51,131 nucleotides of DNA from Cyanobium sp. PLM2.Bin73 (GTDB lineage Bacteria > Cyanobacteriota > Cyanobacteriia > PCC-6307 > Cyanobiaceae): NCBI GenBank assembly GCA_007694915.1, contig REEV01000039.1, positions 1-51,131 of the forward strand, read 5' to 3'. The notes under the pieces were generated by a model. That model saw only the letters and a list, made by a program, of their open reading frames with translations, did no database searches and was not told where the DNA came from. Position 1 is the stretch's first letter; each line of letters starts with the position of its first letter. The position numbers were made by a program, and so were the translations under genes. This document shows, one piece after another, positions 24,869 through 37,566 of the stretch.

Positions 24869-24934
24869 GCGCCCTCCGAGCGACCCGGCGGCTGCTGGCT
24901 GATAGCGTCCCAGCCGAGTGGGAAGCGGTTGGGC

Positions 24935-26455
24935 ATGGGCATCGCTGAATGGCGCGGTCGGCTGGAGCGCGGCGAGATGTCGGCCCGGGAGCTCACCGAC
25001 CGCTGCCTGGCGCGCATCGAGGCGGTGGATGACACCGTCCACGCCTTCCTGGAAGTGACCGCCGAGCGGGCCCGCGCCGATGCCGAGCGCATCGACGCGG
25101 CCCGGGCGGCCGGTGAAACCCTGCCGCCGCTGGCCGGGGTGCCGCTGGCGATCAAGGACAACCTCTGCACCCGCGGCATCCGCACCACCTGCTCCAGCCG
25201 CATGCTGGAGACCTTCGTGCCCCCCTACGAGAGCACCGTCACCGAGCGCCTGTGGCAGGCCGGTGCGGTGCTGCTGGGCAAGACCAACCTCGATGAGTTC
25301 GCCATGGGCAGCTCCACCGAGACCTCCGCCTTCGGCCCCAGCCGCAACCCCTGGAATCCCGCCACCGTGCCCGGCGGCAGTTCCGGGGGCAGTGCCGCCG
25401 CCGTGGCCGCCGGTGAGTGCCTGGGCTCCCTGGGCTCCGACACGGGCGGTTCGATCCGCCAGCCGGCCAGTTTCTGCGGCGTGGTGGGACTCAAGCCCAC
25501 CTACGGCCGCGTCAGCCGCTGGGGTCTGGTCGCCTTCGCCAGCTCCCTCGATCAGGTGGGGCCGTTCAGCGGTTCGGTGGCCGATGCCGCCGAGCTCCTG
25601 CAGGTGATCGCCGGCGCCGACCCGCGCGATGCCACCTGCCTCACGGCGACGGTGCCCGATTACCGCGCCGCCCTGCAGCAGCCGGTGGCGGGCCTGCGGG
25701 TGGGCATCGTGCGCGAGTGCTTCGAGGCGGACGGCCTGGCCCCGGAGGTGAAGGCGGCGGTGCTGGCCGCTGCCGAGCAGCTGCAGGCCCTGGGCTGTGA
25801 ACTGGTGGACGTGAGCTGTCCCCGCTTCAACGACGGCATCGCCACCTACTACGTGATTGCCCCCTCGGAGGCCTCCGCCAACCTGGCCCGCTACGACGGG
25901 GTGAAATACGGCTACCGCGCTGGCCTCAACGACAACGGTGGTGCCGGAGCCGGCGCCAGCCTGGCCGAGATCACGGCCCGCAGCCGCGCCGAGGGCTTCG
26001 GCGATGAGGTGCAGCGGCGCATCCTGATCGGCACCTACGCCCTCTCCGCCGGCTATGTGGATGCCTACTACAAGAAGGCCCAGCAGGTGCGCACCCTGAT
26101 TCGGCGCGACTTCGATCGCGCCTTTGAGTCGGTGGACGTGCTGCTCACCCCCACCTCCCCCACCACCGCCTTCGGCTTCGGCGCCCACAGCAACGACCCG
26201 CTGGCGATGTACCTGGCGGATCTGCTCACCATCCCGGCGAACATGGCCGGCCTGCCGGCGATCTCCCTGCCCTGCGGCTTCGACAGCCAGGGCCTGCCGA
26301 TCGGCCTGCAGCTGATCGCCGGTGTGCTGGAGGAACCCACGCTGCTGCGGGTGGCCCACCACTACGAAACCTCTGCCCGGGTGATGGACAGCCGCCCGCC
26401 GGCCGATCTGGTGCCCACTGTCCCCCTGGTGCCCTCCGCTCCCCTGGTGCCCTGA
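24935..26455 (+). CDS. gatA: Glutamyl-tRNA(Gln) amidotransferase subunit A
   Basis: 506 residues from the ATG at 24935 (an in-frame TTG at 24929 is possible). The amidase catalytic triad is visible: Lys in [11 protein letters not shown], cis-Ser in [14 protein letters not shown] and nucleophile Ser in [13 protein letters not shown]. GatCAB converts Glu-tRNA(Gln) to Gln-tRNA(Gln). The last 14 residues ([14 protein letters not shown]) are an odd repetitive tail produced by a 13-bp direct repeat at 26423 and 26441. A perfect 30-bp palindrome begins 16 bp after the stop. GatB and GatC are not in the window. Confidence 0.96.
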
Positions 26456-26470
26456 TCCCGCTCGTTGTGC

Positions 26471-26500
26471 ACCGTGCACACCAGATCTGGTGTGCACGGT
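26471..26500. repeat. Perfect 30-bp palindrome between gatA and dnaE
   Basis: Half-site ACCGTGCACACCAGA is followed immediately by its exact reverse complement, giving 15-bp arms with no loop. It has no T-run, so it is not a standard terminator. It sits 16 bp after the gatA stop and 48 bp before the dnaE TTG start. It could be a dimer-binding operator or a hairpin in the dnaE leader. Confidence 0.9.
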
Positions 26501-26547
26501 CCTAGCCTGCACGCCACTCCAGCTGGGCGCCGCGGCCGCCCCGAGAC

Positions 26548-30087
<3,540 letters not shown>

Positions 30088-35499: not shown

Positions 35500-37566
35500 C
35501 CCCGCCTCCATCCCCGCACGATCGAGGCCGTCAAGGAGCGGGCCGACATCGTCGACGTGGTGGGCGAGCACGTGGTGCTCAAGAAGAAGGGGCGGGAGTT
35601 CGTGGGGCTCTGCCCCTTCCACGACGACAAGTCGCCGTCGATGACGGTGTCGCCGGCCAAGCAGTTCTATTACTGCTTCTCCTGCGGTGCCGGCGGCAAC
35701 GCCATCAAGTTCCTGATGGAACTGCAGCGCCAGAGCTTCAGCGACGTGGTGCTGGAACTGGCGCGCAAATACCAGCTGCCGGTGGAAACCGTCGACGGCC
35801 CGCAGCAGGAGCGGCTGCGCCAGCAGCTCTCGCGCCGGGAGCAGCTGCACCGCGTGCTCACCCTGGCGGCGGGCTGGTTCCGCACCCAGCTGCGCGCGCC
35901 CCAGGGAGCGGCCGCCCTGGTCTATCTGCGCGAGCAGCGACGCCTGAGCGACACCACCGTGGAGGCCTTCGAGCTCGGTTTTGCCCCCGACCGCTGGGAC
36001 GGGCTGCTGCAGCACCTCAGCCAGGCCCATGGGCTCGCTCCCGAACTGCTGGAGGCTGCCGGCCTGGTGGTGCCCCGCAAGGGAGGCGACGGTTTCTACG
36101 ACCGCTTCCGCGGCCGGGTGATGGTGCCGATCAAGGACCGCCAGGGGCGGGTGATCGGCTTCGGTGGCCGCAGCCTCGATGGCGCCGAGCCCAAGTACCT
36201 CAACTCCCCGGAGACGGAGGTGTTCGAGAAGGGCCAGCACCTGTTCGGCCTCGACCGGGCCGCCAACGCCATCCGCCGCGACGACCGGGCCGTGGTGGTG
36301 GAGGGCTACTTCGACGTGATCGCCCTCCATGCCGCCGGCATCACCAACGCCGTGGCGGCCCTGGGCACGGCCCTGAGCGGCAAGCAGATCACCCAGCTCT
36401 GCCGCTTCTGCGACAGCCGCCGGCTGATCCTCAACTTCGACAGCGATGGTGCCGGGGTGCGGGCGGCCCAGCGGGCCATCGGCGAGGTGGAGCAGCTGGC
36501 CCTGCAGGGCCAGCTGGAGTTGCGGGTGCTGCACCTGCCCGCCGGCAAGGATCCCGACGAGTTCCTCAGTGAGCACGGCGCCGGCGACTACCGCGCCCTG
36601 CTGGATCAGGCGCCGCTCTGGCTCGACTGGCAGATCGAGCAGGTGCTGGACGGCCGTGACCTGGCCCGCTCCGACCAGTTCCAGCAGGCCGTCACCGCCC
36701 TGGTGGCGCTGCTCGGCAAGCTGCCCCAGAGCGCCGTGCGCAGCCACTACCTGCAGCAGGTGGCCGAGCGGCTGTCGGGCGGCCAGGCACGCCTGGCCCT
36801 GCAGCTGGAGGACGACCTGCGCCAGCAGGTGAAGGGGGAGCGCTGGCACGGCCGCTCGCGCAAATGGGAGCAGCCCGGCGAGGCGGGGTTGCGGGAGCGG
36901 GCTGAGGCGGAGGTGCTGCGCCTCTACCTGCACTGCCCGGCCGAACGGGGCGCCATCCGCGCCGAACTGCGCCGGCGCGAGCTGGATGATTTCGCCCTCG
37001 TGCACCACCGCCAGCTCTGGGCCGCCATCTGTGCCCTGGAGGAGGACAACCTGGGTAGCGGCCGTCTGGAGGCGATCAACCGCGGTGCCGATCCCGGCCA
37101 TGGGCTGGCCGACCTCGACCTGCCGCGTCTGCTGGGGCACCAGCTGCTGGTGGAGGAGACCGCACTGCTAAGCCGGCTGACGCCCCTGCTGGAGCCCAGC
37201 GAGCTGCAGCGTCTGGCCCTGGCCCAGCCCCAGCTGCAGCTGCGCGGAGCCACCGCCACCCTGGAGCGCCAGCGCAGCCTGCGCCGCTGCCGGCATCTGC
37301 TCGATGCCTGGAGCAGCCAGCGCCTGCAGACCCTGGAGCAGTGCATCGCCACGCTGCTGGAGCCGGAAGCGGCCCAGCGCCCCGATGCCGGCGATGACAT
37401 GGAGCAGCGCATCGAGGCCCTGTTCGCCCACCTCAACGGCGATGCCCTGCGTTTTCAGGAGCTGTACTACAGCGAGCGCCGCTACCTCCAGCAGCTCGAC
37501 GGCCACCGCCGCGCCGGCCTGGCGGAGGTGGTGGCGACCGATCGTGCCTCGTCCCAACCCGCGTAG
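35491..37566 (+). CDS. dnaG: DNA primase
   Basis: 691 residues. The CHC2 zinc finger is intact: Cys41 and His44 in LCPFHDDKSPS, Cys62 and Cys65 in YYCFSCGAGGN. The TOPRIM catalytic core includes VVVEGYFDVIAL (Glu near 271) and NFDSDGAGVRAAQ (Asp pair near 316). The C-terminal helicase-binding region from about residue 460 is helical. It makes RNA primers for replication. The GTG start at 35491 is in the third unit of a tandem array and overlaps the stop of a tiny upstream ORF, so initiation may depend on coupled re-initiation. Confidence 0.95.
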   Translation: MSLPRLHPRTIEAVKERADIVDVVGEHVVLKKKGREFVGLCPFHDDKSPSMTVSPAKQFYYCFSCGAGGNAIKFLMELQRQSFSDVVLELARKYQLPVETVDGPQQERLRQQLSRREQLHRVLTLAAGWFRTQLRAPQGAAALVYLREQRRLSDTTVEAFELGFAPDRWDGLLQHLSQAHGLAPELLEAAGLVVPRKGGDGFYDRFRGRVMVPIKDRQGRVIGFGGRSLDGAEPKYLNSPETEVFEKGQHLFGLDRAANAIRRDDRAVVVEGYFDVIALHAAGITNAVAALGTALSGKQITQLCRFCDSRRLILNFDSDGAGVRAAQRAIGEVEQLALQGQLELRVLHLPAGKDPDEFLSEHGAGDYRALLDQAPLWLDWQIEQVLDGRDLARSDQFQQAVTALVALLGKLPQSAVRSHYLQQVAERLSGGQARLALQLEDDLRQQVKGERWHGRSRKWEQPGEAGLRERAEAEVLRLYLHCPAERGAIRAELRRRELDDFALVHHRQLWAAICALEEDNLGSGRLEAINRGADPGHGLADLDLPRLLGHQLLVEETALLSRLTPLLEPSELQRLALAQPQLQLRGATATLERQRSLRRCRHLLDAWSSQRLQTLEQCIATLLEPEAAQRPDAGDDMEQRIEALFAHLNGDALRFQELYYSERRYLQQLDGHRRAGLAEVVATDRASSQPA

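Follow-up and report, generated by a model that had tools for sequence, protein, structure and literature searches.

Why should a perfect 30-bp palindrome stand directly in front of the gene for the replicative DNA polymerase? In the window, by which we mean the whole stretch of 51,131 nucleotides that was analysed, an inverted-repeat search found two arms of 15 nt, 26471-26485 and 26486-26500, that are 100% complementary and abut without a loop, just as a preliminary description of this DNA had read them. No other loopless perfect palindrome in these 51 kb is as long (the runner-up, at 36493-36516, has arms of 12 bp), and the number of such palindromes expected from base composition is 3.4e-4, which bears out the earlier view that chance is an unlikely source. 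The location between gatA and dnaE agrees as well, with 47 bases separating the palindrome from the TTG codon at 26548 (described earlier as 48 bp before the start). The elements of the locus are as follows.

24929-26455, plus strand: gatA, an open reading frame with the Pfam Amidase domain, on the same strand as dnaE and ending 15 bp upstream of the palindrome
26471-26500, no strand: perfect palindrome of 2 x 15 bp without a loop, from the arm match; exact half-site unique in the genome
26478-26493, no strand: NrdR-type box ACACCAGATCTGGTGT, the conserved core of the palindrome, 17.9 bits with the nrdJ-trained matrix
26503-26508, plus strand: candidate -10 element TAGCCT (TAnnnT), 9 nt past the box, with the TAnnnT placement kept in relatives
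26511-26526, no strand: weak second box ACGCCACTCCAGCTGG, its centre 33 bp downstream of that of the first, 0.4 bits
26548-30087, plus strand: dnaE, with a TTG start and Pfam DNA polymerase III alpha domains

The 13-bp direct repeat that had been reported in the 3' end of gatA is present as CCCCTGGTGCCCT, in copies that we read at 26423-26435 and 26441-26453. The stretch 26423-26453 is coding, encodes LVP repeats in the GatA tail, and does not look like a part of the operator. The second-longest loopless perfect palindrome of the window, at 36493-36516, is the 24-bp sequence CAGCTGGCCCTGCAGGGCCAGCTG. As one of several possibilities for the palindrome upstream of dnaE, the preliminary description had offered an operator at which a dimeric or tetrameric regulator would control the replicative polymerase. 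Comparison among relatives supports this suggestion well and points to NrdR as the regulator: judging from sequence comparison, the palindrome is probably an NrdR operator of the dnaE promoter. Part of the earlier emphasis has to shift, however. The perfection over 30 bp is real, but it is the 16-bp core, and not the full length, that relatives conserve.

The core was scored with a symmetric matrix of 16 columns that was seeded with the NrdR-box consensus and trained on upstream regions of nrdJ, the gene for the class II, adenosylcobalamin-dependent ribonucleotide reductase. Training was restricted to nrdJ regions, from 57 genomes, to avoid circularity at dnaE, and neither the dnaE nor the cobO regions took any part in it. 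The 57 leave out G046 (not of the family), G076 (weak match) and G001 (fragment), along with the other non-family genomes and those without a match. At 17.9 bits the core is the highest-scoring site in the window, the next reaching 12.9, and it scores 18.8 bits against the local base composition. It agrees at 12 of 16 positions with the NrdR-box consensus. Within 55 bp of the box the best-scoring partner is ACGCCACTCCAGCTGG, which is probably a decayed second box and not a convincing one. An upstream partner inside gatA was sought in the window and none was found.

Scanning for a simple sigma-70 consensus revealed no promoter site here. The TAnnnT element lies 7-9 nt past the box in 11 of the 13 genomes of the genus, our own (G000) included, and occurs 36 times at 7-9 nt beyond a box in 47 dnaE promoters. 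If 26503-26508 is the -10 element, as this placement predicts, a repressor bound to the box would cover the -35 region.

We found dnaE in 56 of 60 genomes, our own included, and in all 30 of a further chosen set, which includes one repeat. The 62 upstream regions of the family that were compared omit G024, G026, G027 and G034, which have no dnaE match, and the non-family genomes, 15 of 23 of which were fetched and scored separately. Most dnaE upstream regions retain the palindromic core. It is ACACCANATNTGGTGT-like in our genus and its GC-rich neighbours and ACACTATATGTAGTGT-like in AT-rich genomes of the Prochlorococcus type, the latter form closely resembling the NrdR-box consensus. A box of at least 9 bits stands upstream of dnaE in 49 of the 62 family genomes, as against 1 of 143 control windows taken in 29 loci from inside dnaE and from the stretch 400-900 bp upstream of it; 40 of the 62 regions reach p <=0.01 against dinucleotide shuffles. 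In 29 of the 49 boxed regions the top-scoring partner lies at 31/32 or 41/42 bp on either side, whereas shuffled flanks (n=40) placed a partner at 31/32/41/42 bp in 4.5 regions on average and in 8 at most. These spacings amount to three or four helical turns. They fit the published phase rule for NrdR boxes, the centres of which lie whole helical turns apart, commonly three, with four tolerated, as described in PMC12051234.

The box is not universal at dnaE. It stays below 9 bits in five family genomes outside genus g9 (G021, G022, G025, G029 and G063), and of 30 named family loci (L167-L195 and L227), drawn from the best 80 of 584 relatives and partly duplicating genomes already counted, 19 reach 9 bits and 11 (L184-L194) do not. 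Genomes under the names Prochlorococcus or Synechococcaceae account for the boxless regions L184 and L186-L194. G029 has no dnaE box either, and upstream of its best cobO-like match (35% identity) lies a box of 15.2 bits. Outside the family, where 300-base regions were scored, 9 bits are reached in 5 of the 15 fetched genomes and in 5 of 25 named loci from non-picocyanobacterial cyanobacteria (L197-L221), and good partners are few (G045, 11.7 and 8.6 bits at 31 bp; L200, 12.6 and 4.8 bits at 31 bp). The gene for the polymerase is thus a frequent, non-obligatory member of the box-bearing set.

What the comparison leaves to be accounted for is the length. The extension beyond the core is not explained by NrdR, and the full 30 bp are lineage-specific: of the 62 dnaE regions, only those of the close relatives G012 and G004 have the same outer arms, there as parts of 14-bp arms. 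One explanation, whose chances we consider evenly balanced, is that the operator seeded a quasi-palindrome whose template-switch correction produced the outer arms, which would be neutral. In G069 the same core sits in a perfect palindrome of 34 bp with quite different outer arms, and in the other promoters, with the four long ones excluded, the outer eight pairs match at 2.60 of 8 positions, slightly above the 2.0-2.3 or so given by chance. The apparent occurrences, on the other hand, number only two. This origin concerns the 30-bp length alone and is compatible with an NrdR operator. The perfect match over 30 bp is probably a by-product of evolution, for example through template-switch correction, or else it may strengthen a site that has lost its partner.

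Two further promoters with the box concern the supply of DNA precursors. At nrdJ, leaving aside g9 and G060, every one of the 50 genomes has its best pair spaced 31 or 32 bp apart; because the training pairs were confined to 30-33 or 40-43 bp, this spacing is not a fully blind result. Single boxes are weak in some of these pairs (for example -0.4 bits in G029, 2.1 in G012 and 3.5 in G091), and TAnnnT usually abuts the second box. Upstream of nrdJ our own genome carries two boxes 32 bp apart, GCGCTGCCACTGGTGG at 9.9 bits and ACCCCACCAGTGGCGT at 17.0 bits, with TAGGGT directly after them. The nrdJ frame itself (G000:C16:23554-26922) is a single open frame of 1170 aa that the family model matches in two stretches about 1.1 kb apart, and the split is likely to reflect an intein in the class II reductase.

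A third box, CCACCACAGGTGGTGT at G000:C101:24909-24924 (about 18.7 bits), lies upstream of a gene for a BtuR/CobO adenosyltransferase, which is followed by a dCTP deaminase gene. Adenosylcobalamin, the product of corrinoid adenosyltransferase, is the cofactor of NrdJ. Fifty-seven cobO regions were scored, leaving out G076 (distant paralogue only), G031 (fragment) and G109 (no match), and a box of at least 9 bits is present in 51 of the 53 from nrdR-bearing genomes and in none of the 4 from genomes that lack nrdR (Fisher p 4e-5 without a correction for kinship). The partner scores highest at 41/42 bp in 18 of 29 regions; in G017 and G081 its top position is 32 bp. In these 29 regions the second boxes are weak (5.5 bits or less) and overlap a conserved -10-like element, and they therefore give no independent evidence of a second box. 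The boxed adenosyltransferase and dCTP deaminase genes (L282 1083-2336, G000:C101) adjoin a Crp-family gene, probably ntcA, with a Thy1-domain (thyX) gene coming next on the opposite strand.

The regulator is encoded in the same genome. An intact nrdR at G000:C81:16384-16821 matches TIGR00244 at 4.2e-62, above the cut-off; its neighbours, judged from their translations, are psbB and a gene resembling that for ribosomal protein S1. Its product has the Zn_ribbon_NrdR and ATP-cone domains and is matched by solved NrdR chains over residues 1-144. It has R12, R17, the RRRR run at 26-29 and R37, the residues described as DNA contacts of Streptomyces coelicolor NrdR in PMC9110341. Position 15 is E in our protein and D in the S. 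coelicolor protein of the same source; a motif search over four loci found the E in three other cyanobacterial NrdRs as well.

Genomes with neither nrdR nor the boxes form a natural comparison series. With a completeness floor of 95, nrdR is absent from 4 of 151 family genomes, which span two genera: G020, G082 and G136 of genus g9, and G060. A box of at least 9 bits is found in 0 of these 4 at dnaE, at nrdJ and at cobO alike. Within g9 all 3 nrdR-bearing genomes have the cobO box and none of the 3 nrdR-lacking ones does (Fisher p 0.1); in all three of the latter it is eroded at the aligned position while the surrounding sequence can still be aligned. The g9 genomes that have nrdR lack the dnaE box in 4 of 4 cases, and the nrdJ box in all 3 with an nrdJ match, so that possession of nrdR does not force control of dnaE; since dnaE and nrdJ are boxless in the sampled g9 genomes whether or not these have nrdR, the nrdR-lacking members say little about dnaE. 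The dnaE region of a Candidatus Synechococcus spongiarum (L185, among the best 80 of 584 relatives) is similarly boxless, and our guess is that g9 is the lineage of that organism. Two less complete genomes have boxes and no nrdR match, G028 (81% complete) at dnaE and nrdJ and G024 (71% complete) at nrdJ. Incompleteness is perhaps the reason; if they truly lack nrdR, they break the rule that the box is absent without it.

A feature of our locus that fits NrdR poorly is the single box. For the E. coli protein, PMC12051234 describes a need for two boxes, with binding 530- to 1000-fold weaker when one of them is mutated. Here, then, either the strong core suffices, or another arrangement or another protein is used. 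We consider it unlikely that the operator, derived from an NrdR site, is now read by another dimeric regulator that uses single sites in this Cyanobium subclade. Several observations would suit such a takeover. The strongest primary boxes of the genus (G000, G001, G004, G005 and G012) have in-phase partners of just -5.3 to 2.1 bits; within the genus the scores of primary box and partner are anticorrelated (rho -0.84, n = 13, related genomes); and the arms are extended in G000, G004 and G012. The core is nevertheless the best match in the window to a matrix trained on nrdJ, the same genome has nrdR together with boxed nrdJ and cobO promoters, and nothing in these comparisons points to a second regulator. 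On the NrdR reading, the second box of our lineage seems to have decayed, and the first is close to ideal and lies within a longer palindrome. That such a site makes up for the decayed partner is a guess.

An RNA hairpin, acting as a gatA terminator or as a dnaE leader structure, is very improbable. The strand does fold well, at -68 kcal/mol as compared with a mean of -57.5 for shuffled sequences (z -2.96), a value that 3 of 200 shuffles equalled. An intrinsic terminator, with a GC-rich stem and a T-run, is ruled out: there is no T-run and a scan of 26300-26700 found no terminator-like site, in line with the earlier remark that the palindrome lacks a T-tract and does not resemble one. The leader hairpin of the preliminary description is likewise unlikely, since most relatives conserve the -10-like TAnnnT on the downstream side of the box, which would put the palindrome upstream of the predicted transcription start. 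Moreover, what the orthologues keep is the letters and spacing of the box, and not the length of the stem.

That the palindrome is a remnant of a dispersed or mobile repeat, left before dnaE by chance, is barely credible: CACCACATCTGGTG does occur elsewhere in some relatives, for instance near DUF2887 or Fic-domain genes (G007, G012), but the palindrome is unique in its own genome, and the position of the core before dnaE and before TAnnnT is kept across genera. A genome-wide search for the half-site, which the preliminary description had proposed, returned as exact matches only the palindrome's own two arms in the draft genome (2.72 Mb, 137 contigs), with no scattered copies. Six further matches appear at 2 mismatches, and the looser core CACYANATNTRGTG has its single place here. 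The mobile-repeat remnant suggested earlier thus finds no second copy of either sequence, and a dispersed repeat was set aside for want of multiple copies in the genome. The CACCACATCTGGTG copies lie near DUF2887/DUF4351 genes at L098 and L104 (G007) and near a Fic gene at L095 (G012).

Secondary CACYANATNTRGTG sites occur in nine relatives, among them sites inside a permease-like gene, within a frame that precedes ssb and near a nucleotide-sugar gene; judged from the translations, they look mostly unrelated and were set aside. At L102 (G017:C38:269206-269219) an NrdR-type box, with TAGGGT 4 nt later, stands just upstream of a RecQ-like helicase gene. The degenerate pattern MCMCYRSATSTGGYGK was scanned through our genome with one mismatch, using the reversed pattern as control. 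It showed no enrichment (31+27 matches versus 37+37 for the control) and is therefore unfit as a regulon finder. Five further places among its 58 matches were scored with the matrix, namely the cobO site and L277-L280. The latter reach 9.5-14.7 bits and were set aside as box pairs, no partner exceeding -2 bits at 31/32/41/42 bp. Because L277 and L279 attain 13.6-14.7 bits, the score alone is not specific genome-wide.

How might an NrdR operator act at dnaE? In the work on other bacteria presented in PMC12051234 and PMC9110341, NrdR tetramers carrying dATP and ATP bind DNA and act as repressors; the ATP-loaded protein does neither. By analogy, binding, repression and nucleotide sensing in this organism, acting through the predicted -10 element and start site, would proceed as follows. 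With ample deoxynucleotides, NrdR, through its zinc ribbon and ATP-cone, would be loaded with dATP and ATP and form a tetramer, which would bind the boxes, cover the -35 region and repress transcription. When dATP is low, the ATP-loaded protein would release the DNA, and dnaE would be transcribed along with nrdJ and cobO-dcd. Transcription of dnaE would thus fall when dNTPs are ample and rise when they are short, so that the supply of polymerase would follow that of dNTPs. The full picture, in which NrdR of picocyanobacteria has a regulon of nrdJ, cobO-dcd and dnaE and one Cyanobium lineage has exchanged the two-box dnaE operator for a single extended palindrome that NrdR reads without a partner, is one that we advance tentatively, as a doubtful but possible whole.

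If the picture is right, one dNTP sensor ties the supply of DNA precursors to that of the polymerase, and NrdR controls the replicative polymerase and the enzyme for the reductase cofactor, in addition to the reductase, in abundant phototrophs of oceans and lakes. The literature consulted treats NrdR chiefly as repressing the genes for ribonucleotide reductase. A link to replication genes such as polA is described for E. coli in PMC4898720, RegPrecise contains an NrdR collection and covers 14 cyanobacterial genomes (PMC3840689), and the freshwater cyanophage S-SRP02 reportedly has a gene most similar to one annotated as transcriptional regulator NrdR (PMC8790148). Among titles and the beginnings of abstracts we found no report that NrdR controls dnaE or cobO in a cyanobacterium, though RegPrecise may predict it. 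NrdR operators are known as a kind; as cyanobacterial targets, dnaE and cobO-dcd are apparently unreported and may have been predicted before.

Compared with the NrdR boxes in reductase promoters of E. coli, Streptomyces, Listeria and Streptococcus, the site at dnaE shares a 16-bp palindrome whose outer halves are CAC/GTG and whose centre is AT, a cognate nrdR in the genome, pairs at three or four helical turns in its relatives and, probably, overlap with the promoter. It differs in that the target is the gene for the replicative polymerase and not a reductase operon, that the box in the window is GC-rich at inner positions, and that there is one strong box, enclosed in a 30-bp palindrome. The nrdJ promoter of this genome and of the family fits the same box model and has TAnnnT as well, although there the element usually adjoins box 2, whereas at dnaE it is mostly 7-9 nt away. 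The cobO(btuR)-dcd promoter of the family shares the box and departs from the arrangement at dnaE in its weak second box, which coincides in part with the -10-like element.
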